The position numbers were made by a program, and so were the translations under genes. The notes below the pieces were generated by a model. That model did not search any database. It had not been told where the DNA came from and saw only the letters and a list, made by a program, of their open reading frames with translations. DNA of 31,839 nucleotides from a virus, in IMG/VR virus record IMGVR_UViG_3300009413_000040, positions 1 through 31,839 of that record; one strand, given 5' to 3'. Of this stretch, positions 23,976 to 31,839 are shown in pieces; position 1 is the stretch's first letter, and every line of letters starts with the position of its first letter.

Positions 23976-25904
23976 CTAGCCGCCAGTGCTATCGCCAAGT
24001 AGGTCAGTCACGATCACGATACCATACATATCAGGTCGAACCATCTTCTTACCGTAACGGGTCATTACACCCTTGTTCGGTACGAAGGTGTCCGGATCGT
24101 AAATCAGCGGAGTGGTCTGTAGTGGCACATAAGGTGCGTATACATAGCCGCTCTCTAGGAAGCTGTTACCCTTACGTCCTACAAGAACAACGTTCCGATA
24201 GAAGTAGGGGTTGACGTAAACGTCAAACTTCTTGCTGAGTGAACCAACCTTCACAGCGCCAGTCGTACCCTTGGAGTCGTCATGAGTGACGGCACCACGG
24301 AAACCAGCAGTAAACTCAAGGATGTTGGCAACCTCCGGAGAGACCACAATAAAGTTGGCCCCACCTCTGAGAGTCTTACGATGGATCTGAGCAGACACAT
24401 CATTAATCGTCTCAAGGAGAGTCTCATACCACTCACTAACATTACCAGTGAAGTCAGCGCCAAGCAAACTCTCGTTTGCAACCGTTGAAATAGGCTGCCC
24501 AGTCGTGCGATCTAGGAACCTACCGGGTAGGCGAGACCAGTACTGAGTACCTGCGGTTGCGTGCTTGACGAGATCCTGTAGAATCTCTTGGTCAATCTCA
24601 AGAGCAATCTGCTCAGAGAGAATCGACGTAAGCTCAACTTCGGCGTCAATATTGTGATAGGCATTTAGATCCTGAGAAAGCTCAGGAGTCCAACGAGCCT
24701 TAAGTTTCTTGGTAACGGCACGAATATCAATGGCATCGACCTTGATGTCGATTTCAGGGATTCGTACATTGCCACCATCAGCTAATCCGCCTCCGGTCTG
24801 ACCAAACTCTAGACCCCATACGTCGTCACCGACAATAGAACCTAAACCAGGAGCAGCATCGAAATCATCGCTAATCGCGAAGCCCCAGGTACGAGTTACA
24901 GCGGCCGAGGCCGGAGTACCATTCTCATCAGGGTCAAGGTACCGCATGTCAGCAGTACGCCCACCGGCACCAGCAGCTTCTGTTCCAAAGGTGTAACACA
25001 ATAGTACAGCCTTTGTAGAGACCAAGTCCTTCAATGGATCACCACCGTTATTAGGATCAATAATCCTAGTAAGCCTGCGGACCAGCGTACCAGATGCCGC
25101 AGTATCCGGGGCAGTCGTAACCGTTACGTTTTCTCTAATGGTCGTAGTATTGCGCTCATCCAACCGACCCTCACTGCCTGCCGCAACAGATGCAGTGAAC
25201 GCATTAAAGTCCACAAATGCAAAGCCACAATAGGTACCAGAGGCAATATCTGGATCGTGTTGTAGTAACTTGGGTGCTGAGAACGACGACGTAGCCGCAT
25301 TTCCGGCGAGAACTCGCCGTCCAGTTAGCTTCAGAGACAGATTCTCATTGTTACTCGCCGTTCCCCACAAAACATCCATTGTGGTGACATCGGCGTGAGT
25401 TGCGCTCGTACCAGTAGGTGCAGCATAACCATTATTTAGGTTATAGAATCCGCCACCACCATTAGTGACAAGATCCACACCACCAGTAATTTGAGCACCA
25501 ACAACGTTACCACCGAATAGCGACTCATTCTGCGAGAGGCCGATATCCTTGTCGGGATCGCCTGCCTGGAAGTCCAGGAAGAAGATGAGACCGGATGGTA
25601 AACTCATTGGTTGTACTGATACGAGTTCATTAGCGATAAGATCACCAAACACTCGTCTTACAATTGGGAACGCAACTGCTGCAAAGCCTTCAACGTCACC
25701 AGCAGCCATTGAGGAAGCTTCTCGTAGAAGCTCTCCCGCCTGGTTCTCTAGTAACATGGCCATATTGCTGCACTCGTTTTGGGCGGCAGTGTCTTCAAGA
25801 CCTTCAAGAAGTCCTGTCTGCTCCCACTTTTCAACTAGCGCGGCATTCTCAGCAGAAACATTGCGTTCAACAATATCTTTTGTTAAAGCTTTTAAAACTG
25901 ACAT
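23976..25904 (-). CDS. 23: Major capsid protein, gp23-like precursor
   Basis: Forms the hexamers of the head shell (HK97 fold). The 642-aa precursor has the gp23 hallmark FPIVRRVFGDLIANELVSVQ, followed by PMSLPSGLIFFLDF (about 79-112), and the C-terminal region with VVLVGRKGNSFLESG and RPDMYGIVIVTDLLG. The first 62 residues are a helical propeptide ending GELLRE/ASS. That is a perfect (L/I)-x-E/A site at E62-A63, against E65-A66 in T4. It is longer than T4 gp23 (521 aa), with extra Gly/Asn-rich sequence at about 120-370, probably an insertion domain. AGGAGG lies 10 bases before the ATG. Terminator follows. Confidence 0.95.
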   Translation of the reverse strand: MSVLKALTKDIVERNVSAENAALVEKWEQTGLLEGLEDTAAQNECSNMAMLLENQAGELLREASSMAAGDVEGFAAVAFPIVRRVFGDLIANELVSVQPMSLPSGLIFFLDFQAGDPDKDIGLSQNESLFGGNVVGAQITGGVDLVTNGGGGFYNLNNGYAAPTGTSATHADVTTMDVLWGTASNNENLSLKLTGRRVLAGNAATSSFSAPKLLQHDPDIASGTYCGFAFVDFNAFTASVAAGSEGRLDERNTTTIRENVTVTTAPDTAASGTLVRRLTRIIDPNNGGDPLKDLVSTKAVLLCYTFGTEAAGAGGRTADMRYLDPDENGTPASAAVTRTWGFAISDDFDAAPGLGSIVGDDVWGLEFGQTGGGLADGGNVRIPEIDIKVDAIDIRAVTKKLKARWTPELSQDLNAYHNIDAEVELTSILSEQIALEIDQEILQDLVKHATAGTQYWSRLPGRFLDRTTGQPISTVANESLLGADFTGNVSEWYETLLETINDVSAQIHRKTLRGGANFIVVSPEVANILEFTAGFRGAVTHDDSKGTTGAVKVGSLSKKFDVYVNPYFYRNVVLVGRKGNSFLESGYVYAPYVPLQTTPLIYDPDTFVPNKGVMTRYGKKMVRPDMYGIVIVTDLLGDSTGG

Positions 25905-25932: not shown

Positions 25933-27012
25933 TTATTTAATTCCTGCTAATCGCTGCATGCGAGAAATTGCCGGTTTAACCTGCTTGCTTTCTCTCACAA
26001 GAAGTCGATTAGAAGAGCGCTTTTCTACTGCCTCAGAAAGTGACTCTGGTCTGCCGCTACTCGCAGCAGAGCCCACTGTACTCTGAAGTGCTTCATAAAT
26101 CGCTCGGGCTTCTTGCATACTCCGCGTTTCTTTGATAGATTTGACAAGCTTTTCTTTTTGTCTCTCATTTAACGAGCTATCTTGTAGAACGCGATTTGAA
26201 TATAACAATTTTGCTCCAGATACCGTTACAGTATCTAATTCTTCTTTTAGTATGTTCATTGTCTCTTCATATTTTGCTACTTTCTCAGTTAAAAGAGAGA
26301 CCTTTTCTTTATTTCTTTTAACCTCTGCCAAAAGCAGCTTGTTATTTTCGTTTGCTTCTTGTAGAACTGAGTTTTCCTCGTTCTTCTTGTCCAGTCGCGC
26401 GAGGCCCTCTTCGGTTAGCTCCAAGGAATCTTCGGGCTCTTCTTCGGCTGGCTCTTCTAGGGCCTCGCCTTCCGGCTCTAGGGCCATCTCTTCTTCGGCT
26501 GGCTCTTCTAGGCCTCCGCCAAGAGTCTCGTCTCTATCGAGCATTTCGTCTCCAAGCATTTCATCCTCTTCTTGACCCAAGAGCTTCTCAAGCTCTCCAA
26601 GGTCAAGACGAAGCTCCGCAGAGCCCACGGCCTCACCATCTTCAACCGACATGTCATCAAGATTAATTGTCAGTGTAATTTCCTCGTCGCCGCCCTCAGA
26701 GGCAGAATTCGGAAGACCCTCTAGCTCGCCAAGGTCCTCTTTTTCATCGCCTAGTCCCGCCGCTTCCGGTGGGAGGGGTGGCATTTCAGCAGCGGCTTCT
26801 TCACCGCCACCGCCACCAAGCATGAGATCATCCGGACCGGGCTGATCTGGGCTCATCGGCAGGCCTTCGTCGTCTTCCTTCTCAAGGATACTCTTAACGG
26901 CCTCTTTAACCTTCTCAGAATATTGCTCCAGAACTATCGTTTCTGCATTTTTTAAAGCTATATTCCTAAGCTCTCTTGCATCGGCTATTGACTTTTCATA
27001 TAATGACGACAT
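25933..27012 (-). CDS. 22: Prohead core scaffolding protein, gp22-like
   Basis: Internal scaffold on which the capsid assembles, later degraded by the prohead protease. The 359-aa protein has an N-terminal helix, then a long acidic Gly/Pro/Glu-rich middle (about 55-205) with EEPAEEE repeats. A charged coiled coil follows (about 208-270: NKLLLAEVKRNKEKVSLLTE), then a basic C-terminus ending RMQRLAGIK. Position directly before the capsid gene matches T4 22-23 (gp22 is 269 aa). The identification rests on composition, order and the adjacent protease. AAGGAG lies upstream of the ATG at 27012, after a 110-base leader with an inverted repeat. Confidence 0.85.
   Translation of the reverse strand: MSSLYEKSIADARELRNIALKNAETIVLEQYSEKVKEAVKSILEKEDDEGLPMSPDQPGPDDLMLGGGGGEEAAAEMPPLPPEAAGLGDEKEDLGELEGLPNSASEGGDEEITLTINLDDMSVEDGEAVGSAELRLDLGELEKLLGQEEDEMLGDEMLDRDETLGGGLEEPAEEEMALEPEGEALEEPAEEEPEDSLELTEEGLARLDKKNEENSVLQEANENNKLLLAEVKRNKEKVSLLTEKVAKYEETMNILKEELDTVTVSGAKLLYSNRVLQDSSLNERQKEKLVKSIKETRSMQEARAIYEALQSTVGSAASSGRPESLSEAVEKRSSNRLLVRESKQVKPAISRMQRLAGIK
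26437..26512 (-). repeat. In-frame 51-base direct repeat in the scaffold gene
   Basis: A 25-base unit beginning CTCTTCTTCGG on the plus strand occurs at 26437-26461 and again at 26488-26512, exactly 51 bases apart. It encodes two copies of EEPAEEE 17 residues apart. The perfect DNA match suggests recent in-frame duplication of an acidic linker. Confidence 0.75.
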
Positions 27013-27122: not shown

Positions 27123-27620
27123 TTAGCCAACATCCCATCCAACCAAACTAGCCGAAGCGAACGTTAGCCCAGAGCCAGTAAGTTGGTACATTTCACGTAC
27201 CGGAATATGGGTTAATTCTGCAAAAAGCTGGTACCCCGATCCGGCTATCATAGTAGTCGCGAAAATCTCAGTGCACTTAACGTTAAATGTCACGGAATCC
27301 TCGTCTGAGTCAAGCTGAATGTAGTGGTGTTGGTTGAAGACGTTTTCAGACCCGCCCGCACTACTTGTTGGGTTAAAATGGACTCTGATACTAGGTGTTG
27401 TGTTGACTGTGCCAGATGCAATTATGGTTACCGACTTGGCCACCGTTGGAAATTGTATCCTATGCGTTTGATTCACTTTCGTTGGCACACCGGTAGATAA
27501 TTCTGCTGCCGTACCGGCCACGTTTCCCGTAATAAACGGGTATCCGGCTACTTGGTAGGAACCGACATTGCCAATCCCTGGTCTAGTCACGCCAAACGTT
27601 CTATTGCTGTTAACTCCCAA
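27123..27620 (-). CDS. Small beta-rich virion protein (possible head decoration)
   Basis: A 165-aa protein of alternating polar/hydrophobic strands with Gly/Ser/Thr-rich turns, beginning NRTFGVTRPGIGNVGSYQVA. Later segments include HRIQFPTVAKSVTIIASG, SIRVHFNP, HHYIQLDSDEDSVTFNVK and GYQLFAELTHI. It looks like a single beta-sandwich domain of the type found on phage heads or fibres. I cannot name a family with confidence. It starts with TTG at 27620, with GAGGGG six bases upstream; the nearby GTG frame stops at once. The neighbours are bS21 upstream and the scaffold downstream, so a head-surface role is the best guess. Confidence 0.7.
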   Translation of the reverse strand: MGVNSNRTFGVTRPGIGNVGSYQVAGYPFITGNVAGTAAELSTGVPTKVNQTHRIQFPTVAKSVTIIASGTVNTTPSIRVHFNPTSSAGGSENVFNQHHYIQLDSDEDSVTFNVKCTEIFATTMIAGSGYQLFAELTHIPVREMYQLTGSGLTFASASLVGWDVG

Positions 27621-27635
27621 TTTGCACCCCTCTAG

Positions 27636-27860
27636 TTATCTTCTGTTTTTAAGTCTATTTTTGCGCTGTTCTTTTTTAACGCGTCTTTTCTGTTCGTTCC
27701 TTTTTTGGGAAAGTTTTTTATAATATTTTGTTCTTTCTATGTATTCTTCCAGGATTTTTAGTTTTGAAACTTTTTTCATAAATCTCTTGATCATCCTCTC
27801 CGGATCTGAGACTTCCTTACTTGTAATTTCAAAATTATACGGTCTTTTTCCCCTTCCCAT
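27636..27860 (-). CDS. rpsU: Ribosomal protein bS21-like
   Basis: A 74-aa very basic protein. From residue 17 it follows the bS21 pattern: VSDPERMIKRFMKKVSKLKI, then LEEYIERTKYYKKLSQKRNE and a Lys/Arg-rich tail. Bacterial bS21 has the same order (an ALRRFKRxVxKxGIL helix, then a RREFYEKPSxKRKR helix and a basic tail) and similar length (about 70 aa). bS21 sits on the 30S platform near the anti-Shine-Dalgarno sequence, so a phage copy could alter initiation on phage mRNAs. bS21 genes are known in environmental phages. Here it lies inside the head gene cluster, 4 bases after the 126-aa gene, with AAGG before the ATG. The first 16 residues are phage-specific. Confidence 0.82.
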   Translation of the reverse strand: MGRGKRPYNFEITSKEVSDPERMIKRFMKKVSKLKILEEYIERTKYYKKLSQKRNEQKRRVKKEQRKNRLKNRR

Positions 27861-27864
27861 TACT

Positions 27865-28245
27865 TTACCTTTTGGCCTTTATGGCCTTTACAACGCCCGC
27901 CGCTCTTGCGAGGCCAGGAATCTCCGACAGCTTTGTCATGCTTATGCCAGGATTTCCCTTGTCTTTTTGTTGAACTCTATCCGCCGATACATCCTTGAAC
28001 ACATCAACGCCACCTAGCGTCTCGCCTCCAATACCATCCAAGAGCCTCTTCCTTGTCTCCGCTAACCTGCTGTAATTAGGCTCTTCATTCGGTTTGGGTG
28101 TGTTTGTTTTTGCTTCGTTAATTATTTGCTTGCCTGCGGTTACCCCCGTCGCAATCTCTGAAATCAGAGGCGATAAAAAGTTTTCCTCAAAAACTATTTC
28201 TCGAATGCATTCTTTTATTATGCCTTTTAACTGCTTTTTCGTCAT
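27865..28245 (-). CDS. Probable internal head protein with prohead-targeting N-terminus
   Basis: A 126-aa protein. It opens with an amphipathic helix, TKKQLKGIIKECIREIVFE, that closely parallels the start of the next upstream gene (TKTHLKELVKEAIEEVLFE). A perfect prohead protease site IINE/AK lies at E44-A45. The rest is polar, with a Lys/Pro-rich linker and a basic C-terminus (VVKAIKAKR). T4 internal proteins likewise carry an N-terminal capsid-targeting peptide that gp21 removes. The role of the mature part is unknown; basic charge would suit DNA packing. The ATG at 28245 overlaps the end of the upstream gene's spacing by one base of gap, with AGGAT ahead. Confidence 0.75.
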   Translation of the reverse strand: MTKKQLKGIIKECIREIVFEENFLSPLISEIATGVTAGKQIINEAKTNTPKPNEEPNYSRLAETRKRLLDGIGGETLGGVDVFKDVSADRVQQKDKGNPGISMTKLSEIPGLARAAGVVKAIKAKR

Positions 28246-28246
28246 A

Positions 28247-28966
28247 TTAATATCCTGCGGGGTACTGTTTCATTTTTTCGTGCGATTGTCTCAAATTAGT
28301 ATTTCCAAGGGCTATGCTGCCTGCGTGCCTTCCCGTATGTCTTGGAGGCTCTGCATCGTCGCTTAACTTGATTTCAAATCTCGGCTTGTGAACCGCATAA
28401 AACTTCAAAAAGCCATTATGCGCCTCTTTATATCTTTGAAAAAACGGGTCTAGTTGTTCATAAAAATATTTACTTGTATTATCATTGAAGTTTTCAAGGT
28501 GCCCAACCGCTTCAGACAACGAAAAGGCCATATTCGACAGCAAATCATACTCATCCGAATAGAAAACCTTGTTTCTGGACGTCATCTGATTAGCGCCATC
28601 ATAATCCGGTGAATCTTCAGAGTTTTCAATCATTTCGGCCCTAAATTTTAGTATATAATAGTACAGAGGGAGCGCCTCGTTTAGTTTAATGGCCTCTAGG
28701 TCTTCTAATTCTAACTTATTCCTAGGGTCTCCAAAAAGATTATTAAAAACCTGGACCGAGAGCCTTAAAAAGGAGTGATCAAGCTCCTTTTCATTATACA
28801 TTTTTTCTAGCTCTATGACCTCTCTTGATAGGCTACGAAGCTTGCTGGCAACAGTCGCAAACTGGACCTTATAAAGAGACGACAACGAACGGGCTTCAAA
28901 CAAGACCTCCTCTATTGCTTCCTTTACCAACTCTTTTAAGTGTGTTTTTGTAACTTTTACACTCAT
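28247..28966 (-). CDS. Probable internal head protein with prohead-targeting N-terminus
   Basis: A 239-aa mainly helical protein. Residues 5-24 (VTKTHLKELVKEAIEEVLFE) form an amphipathic helix shared with the next gene and end in a perfect L-x-E/A protease site (LFE/A at E24-A25). The body has charged helices (FRAEMIENSEDSPDYDG, LSEAVGHLENFNDN) and a C-terminus rich in His and Arg (PPRHTGRHAGS). No enzyme motif is visible. It follows the protease through a TAATG overlap. The T4 equivalents in position would be core or internal proteins, but no direct homologue can be named. Confidence 0.72.
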   Translation of the reverse strand: MSVKVTKTHLKELVKEAIEEVLFEARSLSSLYKVQFATVASKLRSLSREVIELEKMYNEKELDHSFLRLSVQVFNNLFGDPRNKLELEDLEAIKLNEALPLYYYILKFRAEMIENSEDSPDYDGANQMTSRNKVFYSDEYDLLSNMAFSLSEAVGHLENFNDNTSKYFYEQLDPFFQRYKEAHNGFLKFYAVHKPRFEIKLSDDAEPPRHTGRHAGSIALGNTNLRQSHEKMKQYPAGY

Positions 28967-29565
28967 TATTCGTTATTTTCCTCTAAAATGTCATTAATCG
29001 CTCGATTGATCCTATCTGCCTTTGTGGCTTCAAAATCTTCCTTTCCCTCTCTAAGCATAAACGCGCCGGCAGTAGATGGCTCAGTCACCAAATCAAAACA
29101 AATAAGGTGAAAATCCTCATTCACCATTGTTTTATCGCCTTGTTTATCAGTTGAACCAAGACCTCTAGAGGAAATTCCAAATTTAACGCCTCCCTCTAAA
29201 AGACCTCTGGCAATACCGCCAGCGGGGGTGTTTAAAATCTTTATCTTACCCTTAACATCGTCTTTATCCCACCAAACATCGGTTACCAAGTGAGATACGT
29301 TTTTCATTTCTATAACAGAGGTATCGGGATGATCTAATTCACCAACAGAACGACCTTCGCGAATTAGTTTTTCGTAATTTCTCATTTCTCGCTCTAAGAC
29401 CTTTTTAGGATAAACTCTGCCATTTGCGTTTTCGGCATCTGCGCGCTGTAAGACACCCGCCATTATCAACTCGCCCTCATTAAGAGACGCACGATCTTCT
29501 TCTGTCAAAAGATCCGGTTCATTTTCCCATTGTAGAAATTCTTTAATTAAAAGTTTGTCGCTCAT
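28966..29565 (-). CDS. 21: Prohead core protease, gp21-like (S77)
   Basis: Serine protease that matures the prohead by cleaving scaffold and capsid precursors. The 199-aa protein (T4 gp21 is 212 aa) has the herpesvirus-protease-like layout: catalytic His79 in SVGELDHPD, the serine motif KFGISSRGLGS (S132/S133), and the downstream FDLVTEPSTAGAFM segment (157-170). A possible self-cleavage site LRE/G (E173-G174) follows, after which the C-terminus is charged. T4 gp21 also cleaves itself. It sits upstream of scaffold and capsid genes as in T4. GAGGA lies about 8 bases before the ATG at 29565. Confidence 0.93.
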   Translation of the reverse strand: MSDKLLIKEFLQWENEPDLLTEEDRASLNEGELIMAGVLQRADAENANGRVYPKKVLEREMRNYEKLIREGRSVGELDHPDTSVIEMKNVSHLVTDVWWDKDDVKGKIKILNTPAGGIARGLLEGGVKFGISSRGLGSTDKQGDKTMVNEDFHLICFDLVTEPSTAGAFMLREGKEDFEATKADRINRAINDILEENNE

Positions 29566-29594: not shown

Positions 29595-31442
29595 TTATCT
29601 CTTTTTTCTACCACCAGGGATTCTTCTCACTCCGGGCCTTCTTAGGGACCCCATCTTCTTTTTGGGCTTCTCCGGTGCTGCCTGTTGGGCTATACTCGGT
29701 AGTTTAGGCTCTAAGGGTTCAATATCTTCCGGGGATGTAAGCTCTTCACCAACATCCGCACTCTCAACTCCGGCGAGTTCTTCAGGGGCTTCTTCTATCG
29801 CCCCTTCTTCTCCCCCATAAAGTTGTTGCATGAACTGCTCGGGCGTCATCTGCGCCACGTCTTCCCAAGGGTCTTCCTCTTCTCTTGCCTTCTTCTTTTT
29901 GCGCTCAGTGGGCTCTGCCTTTGTAACTTCAAAGGTGGCGATTTCCTCGGCGAGTTCTTCGGCTCCCATCTTTGAATTATATTCGACACCAAGCCTACGA
30001 GCCATATTGCGCAATCTCATAAGCTTGCCCCGATCGGACAATTCGGCCACCCAAGCCAACAACTCATTCGCTCTATCGACAATAAGATTATTTTCTTCAA
30101 CACTACCGGGCTCAGGGGCTTCCTCTGGGATTTCGACTGGCTCCGGAATAGACTCTTCTACAGCAGGAGAGGGAGGGCCAGGCTCTCCAGGGGTAACAGG
30201 CTCGGTGGGTTCCTCTGCGGGCTCTCCAGGGGTTGCTTCTACAGCTTCATCGGGTATGACTTCATCGGGTATGACTTCATCAGGCGGTGCTTCTACCGCC
30301 TCTTCAGGCACAATCTCTTCCAAGGGTGCCTCTGCTTCCAGCGATTCAGGCTCCTCTTCCGGAGCAGCAGCGGGCACGTTAAAGAGAGCTTCAACTATTC
30401 TAGGTACTGTCCCTTTTCTACCACCCCTGATCTTGACTTCTAATTCCCTTGCCATTTTTTTAACGTCAGTCCAAGAATACTTGCTTTTGTCCATAAGTGC
30501 CGCCGTAGCTTCTTCAGGGCTCATATCTCTCAGAGCCGGCTTTTCACCCTCAAGAGGGAGTTCCATCTGTCTCTCATCAGGCTCCATCGGGGGCCTTTCC
30601 GCAATATCTCTAAACATATTACTGGATGCCGGGGCTCCCGCTTTGGCCTCCTCGGCGTACTCTCTAACTGCCTTTACCGCATCTTGGGGGTTAAGGGAGA
30701 TTTGTCTAAAATAGTCCCTTAGGGCGTCAACTGGGTCATCCAAGACCTCATCCGTTCCCCTTGTTAGGGAGGACAGGGACAGATCCCCCTTCAGTAGGCC
30801 CAGCAGCCCATCGACCAACATCTTATAATCGTTAGTTCTGTATCTTTCTGAGTCGAAATTCTGTTCATTAGCATACCTTTCTAGTCCAATCATAAAATCC
30901 GGGAGTTGCAAATTATCAAATTCTTTTGCAAATGCCGGTTTGTTAAGGGAAAATTCAGAGATCACATGAAAGAAATTTTCCTTGCCAAGTCTTCTAACCA
31001 AGGCAATCCCAGCAAGATTGGCAGCCGCAGAATCCTCTAAGCGCTTTGCGAACTCGTTTGCATATACATCCAGCGCCTGCCTAGTGTTTAGGCTCTGTTC
31101 CTTCTCGGAATCAGTATCAGGCACTTCCCTTTCTTTGGCCGCGTTGGTTACCGTTACAAATGAGGTTATAATATCTTGTAATATTTTTTGATGGTCCTTC
31201 GACCCATAGCCGCCCTGGTAATACCTATTAATAAACGCCTTAAGCAGATTATACAAGTTTCTAAACTCTGGGTTTAATGCGACGTCCTCATTTCCTACCG
31301 AGTCTCTAAACTCCTGGTAGCTTGGAAAATCTCCTCGAACATCTTCGAACAAAAGATTGCGCTCACGCAAAAAATAATATAATTCCTTGCAGACTATATT
31401 TTCAACCCGACTTTCTTTTATTTGAAACTCAACCTTGTTCAT
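29595..31442 (-). CDS. Pro/Glu-rich head protein with two SAP-like segments
   Basis: A 615-aa protein in the position of T4 prohead core genes 67/68. The N-terminal 300 residues are helical. A SAP-like helix-turn-helix segment (YSWTDVKKMARELEVKIRGG, about 315-350) precedes a Pro/Glu/Ala-rich linker of about 110 residues, and a second similar segment (LMRLRNMARRLGVEYNSKMG) follows at about 466-500. The C-terminus is strongly basic (RRPGVRRIPGGRKKR). A possible protease site IKE/S lies at residues 8-11. I chose the ATG at 31442 because it makes an ATGA overlap with the preceding stop; a TTG four codons earlier lacks support. A scaffold or DNA-associated internal protein is likely, but unproven. 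Confidence 0.78.
   Translation of the reverse strand: MNKVEFQIKESRVENIVCKELYYFLRERNLLFEDVRGDFPSYQEFRDSVGNEDVALNPEFRNLYNLLKAFINRYYQGGYGSKDHQKILQDIITSFVTVTNAAKEREVPDTDSEKEQSLNTRQALDVYANEFAKRLEDSAAANLAGIALVRRLGKENFFHVISEFSLNKPAFAKEFDNLQLPDFMIGLERYANEQNFDSERYRTNDYKMLVDGLLGLLKGDLSLSSLTRGTDEVLDDPVDALRDYFRQISLNPQDAVKAVREYAEEAKAGAPASSNMFRDIAERPPMEPDERQMELPLEGEKPALRDMSPEEATAALMDKSKYSWTDVKKMARELEVKIRGGRKGTVPRIVEALFNVPAAAPEEEPESLEAEAPLEEIVPEEAVEAPPDEVIPDEVIPDEAVEATPGEPAEEPTEPVTPGEPGPPSPAVEESIPEPVEIPEEAPEPGSVEENNLIVDRANELLAWVAELSDRGKLMRLRNMARRLGVEYNSKMGAEELAEEIATFEVTKAEPTERKKKKAREEEDPWEDVAQMTPEQFMQQLYGGEEGAIEEAPEELAGVESADVGEELTSPEDIEPLEPKLPSIAQQAAPEKPKKKMGSLRRPGVRRIPGGRKKR
30246..30290 (-). repeat. 15-base tandem repeat in the Pro/Glu-rich linker
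   Basis: TTCATCGGGTATGAC occurs twice in perfect tandem (30246-30260, 30261-30275). A degenerate third copy follows (30276-30290). On the coding strand it gives the repeated pentapeptide DEVIP. Being a multiple of three, copy changes would alter linker length without a frameshift. Confidence 0.8.
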
Positions 31443-31839
31443 AGCAAATAACAACTCACTAAATAATTGTCTTCATCGTCTTCTTTGTACCATTCAACCT
31501 GTACGTTACTATCCGACGGGCCGACTAGGAACTGATCCGGGCGCTTAAATCCCACATCAAACTTAATATTACCAAATCTTGACGTTATCGCATTTGCCGG
31601 AACCCCCTGGCCCGCATGCTCCGGCTTTAATACATAGCCATAGTCATCCAAAATAGAATAAACTAGATCGAGCGCCTGCTGTACATTCTTCATGGAGGTT
31701 TCCCCATCCATCCCCTCTGAGCGAAACGCGCTATTGATCATAAATTTAATTGAAGGAAAGATGGTGTGTGCCGTTTCCTCCTTCAAGCGTTCTGTTTCTT
31801 CTTTCAATAGTTCACTATATTTTTCTTTATTTATTTTAA
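31439..31839 (-). CDS. Hypothetical protein, 5' end beyond the window
   Basis: The frame is open to the right edge (KINKEKYSELLKEETERLKE), so the true start is probably outside; an internal TTG at 31807 is the only near candidate start and lacks a convincing ribosome binding site. The visible part of about 133 aa has an N-terminal charged helix, then VQQALDLVYSILDDYGYV and a strand-rich C-terminal half (RFGNIKFDVGFKRP, VQVEWYKEDDEDNYLVSCYLL). I recognise no family. It is coupled to the next gene by an ATGA overlap, and lies where the portal-proximal head genes would be expected. Confidence 0.7.
   Translation of the reverse strand, partial: KINKEKYSELLKEETERLKEETAHTIFPSIKFMINSAFRSEGMDGETSMKNVQQALDLVYSILDDYGYVLKPEHAGQGVPANAITSRFGNIKFDVGFKRPDQFLVGPSDSNVQVEWYKEDDEDNYLVSCYLL

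Follow-up and report, generated by a model that had tools for sequence, protein, structure and literature searches.

A diverged bS21 homologue in the head operon of a T4-like phage lineage

The head operon of a T4-like phage carries a short gene whose product we regard, on sequence grounds, as settled to be a true, diverged phage homologue of bacterial bS21. The gene lies in the window, by which we mean the whole 31,839-nucleotide stretch of viral DNA analyzed here, and comparison with related viral contigs indicates that this phage bS21 is conserved and syntenic (Table 1). Our preferred reading, to which we give a probability of roughly two in three, is that the protein is most likely produced along with the head proteins and would, late in infection, fill vacant sites or replace host bS21 in the 30S subunit. 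There are few candidate means by which a virus could rebuild the ribosomes of its host, and phage ribosomal proteins are among them. A bS21 gene that is fixed in place and strand and is under purifying selection in divergent phages points to a constant role connected with capsid production.

Table 1. Features of the head locus in the window
Feature	Coordinates	Strand	Basis
Major capsid protein, Gp23 family	23976..25904	-	PF07068, E 2.5e-73
Acidic 359-aa protein, scaffold position	25933..27012	-	Between protease and capsid gene; relatives' homologues precede capsid gene
g165, directly downstream of bS21	27123..27620	-	TTG start with strong Shine-Dalgarno (SD) site; often adjoins bS21 in relatives
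Phage bS21 homologue, 74 aa	27636..27860	-	Held-out family profile, 53.4 bits, E 8.6e-16; family profile versus PDB bS21 chains, E 2.7e-13
g126, candidate prohead-core protein, conserved partner upstream of bS21	27865..28245	-	Co-occurrence with bS21; [LIV]xE-like site
g239, head-operon gene between protease and g126	28247..28966	-	Position
Prohead core protease, T4 gp21 type	28966..29565	-	PF03420, E 7.6e-28; phrog_207, E 1.1e-49
g619, 619-aa open reading frame	29595-31454	-	N-terminal amphipathic helix with [LIV]xE-like site

Identity of the small basic protein

The open reading frame has 74 codons and an ATG start on the minus strand, and it encodes a strongly basic protein (28 K/R versus 9 D/E; pI 10.8). 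Taken alone, this protein fails both curated models of the family, scoring 13.8 bits against a cutoff of 27 with Pfam PF01165 (E 0.05) and 18.4 bits against a cutoff of 28.95 with NCBIfam TIGR00030 (E 0.0014). Such cutoffs serve automatic naming, and profile homology is the stronger test. Because the single sequence fails them, relatives were gathered via the capsid protein rather than via bS21, and small related open reading frames were found upstream of many of the capsid genes. As the sole query, the window protein retrieved only an identical twin contig and a weak match in Microcystis phage Mel-JY01; a scan of cellular genomes with one relative as the query gave three distant matches.

A profile built from 20 relatives, with the window protein held out, scored that protein at 53.4 bits, and no other six-frame segment of the window matched it strongly. 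Full shuffles of the same protein (n = 5,000) reached 10.2 bits at best, and local shuffles in 12-residue blocks (n = 5,000) reached 21.1 bits at best. E. coli bS21, with the sequence of which the bS21 chains in the PDB agree, scored 45.5 bits with the held-out profile. Moreover, all 21 aligned family members matched both PF01165 and TIGR00030 at E < 0.1 (best values, 1.9e-14 and 3.1e-14, respectively). When the family profile was run against the PDB, bS21 chains were matched down to E 2.7e-13, and the few non-bS21 matches were all at E 0.7 or worse. The bS21 identity proposed in the first-pass annotation is upheld by these results, and the family-profile check that it had named came out divided: the single sequence lies below the curated cutoffs, whereas the held-out profile of relatives recognizes it.

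An AlphaFold2 model predicts helices at residues 20 to 33, 36 to 45, and 50 to 73 (mean pLDDT, 85; pTM, only 0.37). A Foldseek search of the PDB returned no match, which is uninformative for so small a helical model of low pTM, and the predicted structure contributes little to the identification. The labels "DNA helicase" and "Wzz," which came from weak matches, were rejected as noise from basic helices.

Placement in the head operon and conservation in relatives

The same-strand gene run around bS21 includes the gp21-type protease, the acidic protein in the scaffold position, and the Gp23 capsid protein. On the minus strand, bS21 is downstream of the protease gene and upstream of the scaffold-position and capsid genes, with 4 nt between the end of g126 and its start and 15 nt between its end and g165. 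Pfam and PHROG searches gave no match for g165 and only weak, nonsignificant matches for g239. In the window, no tRNA genes were found, and an Rfam search returned no match and hence no conserved RNA element.

Relatives were collected in two sets, which share a few contigs. Among the capsid-selected viral contigs that span the protease to the capsid gene, 16 of 16 have bS21 in between and on the same strand; this count omits loci found through bS21 as well as the identical twin of the window, and two of its loci are near-identical contigs. The second set was selected with an alignment of proteases, a single protease query having retrieved the twin only. Here, bS21 was present in 42 of the 51 viral loci with at least 2.5 kb of downstream sequence, always on the same strand, and nine relatives with enough room had no bS21 near the protease. 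The location inside the head operon that the earlier annotation had described is thus borne out, and the arrangement is conserved across the lineage. Of all 55 copies of bS21, 33 have their start no more than 480 nt from where the protease match ends, and in some relatives the cassette lies at least 9 kb from the capsid gene (L053, L066, L070, and the record of L005). Mel-JY01 has the same head-gene order as the window; in Flavobacterium phage immuto, which has a related head module, no bS21 was found in the 12.5 kb read.

The bS21 genes of the relatives are under purifying selection. Their dN/dS values were 0.08 to 0.16 in the six closest pairs, a figure that rests on relatives, the window copy having an identical twin only. 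A pattern search was impractical with the mixed bS21 alignment because of its high variability.

The occurrence of the gene immediately upstream tracks that of bS21: g126 was found in 38 of the 42 protease-selected loci with bS21 versus 1 of the 9 without it. Relatives also often keep a g165 homologue next to bS21. In 70 of 71 g126 homologues, [LIV]xE occurs within residues 11 to 40. The minus-strand genes g126, g239, and g619 encode a common N-terminal amphipathic helix that ends in an [LIV]xE-like site, which we take to resemble the capsid-targeting and cleavage signals of T4. This shared helix may be a capsid-targeting and protease-cleavage signal of the lineage. The bS21 proteins lack an N-terminal helix of this type.

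Proposed late role in the ribosome and alternative explanations

bS21 sits on the platform of the 30S subunit beside the 3' end of the 16S rRNA, and initiation on natural mRNAs requires it. We propose that the phage protein would be made in large amounts late in infection, along with the head proteins, that it would fill vacant bS21 sites or replace host bS21 in the 30S subunit, and that it would there keep or retune initiation while the virion proteins are made. Late cotranscription with the head genes is predicted from the placement of the gene. From g126 to the capsid gene, this strand showed no terminator-like site, nor was a TATAAATA late promoter motif found near the bS21 gene. Incorporation of the window protein into ribosomes and an effect on the choice of mRNA are likewise proposals.

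Published work bears on this reading from both sides. Chen et al. (2022) described phage bS21 genes beside protease, capsid, portal, and terminase genes, found head-linked phage bS21 to be highly expressed together with structural genes, and proposed late replacement of host bS21 (PMC9723584). The idea that a late, head-linked phage bS21 replaces the host protein is therefore already published. What is new here is the lineage-wide, same-strand arrangement of g126 and bS21, and the window gene is a divergent addition to the published bS21 phages. Mizuno et al. (2019) showed that one phage bS21, that of pelagiphage HTVC008M, enters E. coli ribosomes (PMC6375957). Against late replacement, in that one published test, the ribosomes with phage bS21 translated poorly, with in vitro translation at ~5% of the control in a heterologous host (PMC6375957). 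Also counting against it are the window copy's failure to reach the curated cutoffs on its own, the loss of the proline of its KPS motif, the 9 of 51 relatives without bS21 near the protease, and the lack of an SD signature specific to late genes.

The SD sites of the window genes are clear against background (P = 4e-9), which suggests that the host probably uses them. The first-pass annotation had supposed that late bS21 would serve structural genes with strong SD sites or TTG starts. With genes assigned by the analyst to replication and structural classes from their names and positions, the mean energy of the anti-SD duplex was -5.6 kcal/mol in both (n = 8 and 19, respectively; P = 0.89). 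The ribonucleotide reductase gene has a TTG start with a good SD site, as do g103 and g165. Therefore, the sequence supports neither part of that supposition and offers no link between bS21 and SD-rich or TTG-start late genes. The TTG start listed for g619 is doubtful, in that an in-frame ATG follows four codons later and no SD site precedes the TTG.

Other explanations were weighed. A bS21-derived protein could be packaged in the head, be injected, and act on host ribosomes as soon as the next infection begins; alternatively, the packaged protein could be a basic, DNA-binding internal head protein. The strongly basic composition and the location among candidate prohead-core genes are consistent with packaging, the possibility of which was raised by Chen et al. 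(PMC9723584). However, the N-terminal helix and [LIV]xE-like site carried by g126, g239, and g619 are absent from the bS21 proteins, and the residues kept in the family are bS21 residues and not merely basic ones. We consider packaging in either form unlikely. It is quite improbable, in our judgment, that the bS21 fold was recruited to work outside the ribosome on behalf of the head genes, binding RNA or aiding assembly, for instance by regulating the translation of its own operon. The close association with g126 and the head genes across the lineage and the departure of the window copy from the KPS motif would fit such a role, but the core bS21 motifs are preserved in the family overall and the window yielded no conserved RNA element (Rfam only).

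That a basic coiled-coil open reading frame resembles bS21 by chance is scarcely credible. Only the single-sequence scores below the curated cutoffs speak for it; the held-out profile and shuffle controls together with the protease-selected synteny (42 of 51) refute it, and the purifying selection in relatives also argues against it. Late filling or replacement of host bS21 remains our preferred reading. We can also entertain, as a tentative generalization that we would not bet on, that in a large T4-like lineage bS21 is a near-core head-operon gene rather than an occasional auxiliary one, linked to the prohead-core-like g126 and drifting from the cellular form, and that its product is a ribosome component dedicated to the late phase or one that is packaged. 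The bS21 genes of the lineage supply many natural variants for testing.

Comparison with known bS21 proteins

Like the window gene, the bS21 genes of the freshwater Bacteroidetes phages and the 900 bS21 phages of Chen et al. are found a few genes from the prohead protease and major capsid genes, and a protease lay within 10 genes of bS21 in 310 of the 900 published phages surveyed (PMC9723584). The Bacteroidetes clades, however, encode bS21 and the structural genes on opposite strands (PMC9723584), whereas the window gene is on the same strand and inside the operon. The proteins differ as well. Tyr54 of F. johnsoniae bS21 helps to block the anti-SD sequence in Bacteroidetes, and in the phage proteins from the Bacteroidetes clades that position is still aromatic (PMC9723584). 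Counting from the shared (K)xS motif puts Lys63 of the window protein at this position, in place of the Bacteroidetes-type aromatic residue; the F. johnsoniae sequence was confirmed against 7jil.

In pelagimyophages, bS21 is a core gene, yet it was reported to lie outside any specific gene cluster (PMC7029224). The bS21 of pelagiphage HTVC008M, gp109, is matched by the same family profile (39.1 bits), but its gene (L094:41228-41431) is flanked by cobS and hsp20, close to replication genes, and is not in a head operon. Therefore, phage bS21 genes occupy at least two genomic settings. The RpsU protein of Mel-JY01 (PP395634) has 40% identity to the window protein over 47 residues, and the gene order of the window recurs around it: protease, a small gene, bS21, further genes, and a Gp23-type capsid gene, all on the same strand. 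RpsU differs in keeping the KPS motif and in having a longer N terminus.

The window protein has the core features of a short helical bS21 (the RF motif and YYxKPS), except that Leu replaces the Pro of KPS. It shares with E. coli bS21 the RF motif, the ER..YY-K-S core, and a basic C-terminal helix, and it departs from that protein in an N-terminal extension, a one-residue insertion before YY that a few relatives also have, and KLS in place of KPT/KPS. Pro was present in this motif in 61 of 74 distinct homologues, and Leu was found in the window protein alone. The extension had been put at 16 residues and described as unlike cellular bS21. Its actual length is 8 residues, as the Phe of the conserved RF motif is at position 27 versus 19 in E. 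coli bS21, and it is not peculiar to this protein, as several phage relatives have N termini of similar or greater length. In one subgroup (L017, L049, L081, and L178), the proteins have an extra conserved N-terminal segment of ~40 residues (YDRKLDKKRKKYGKKINA) and have lost the RF motif.
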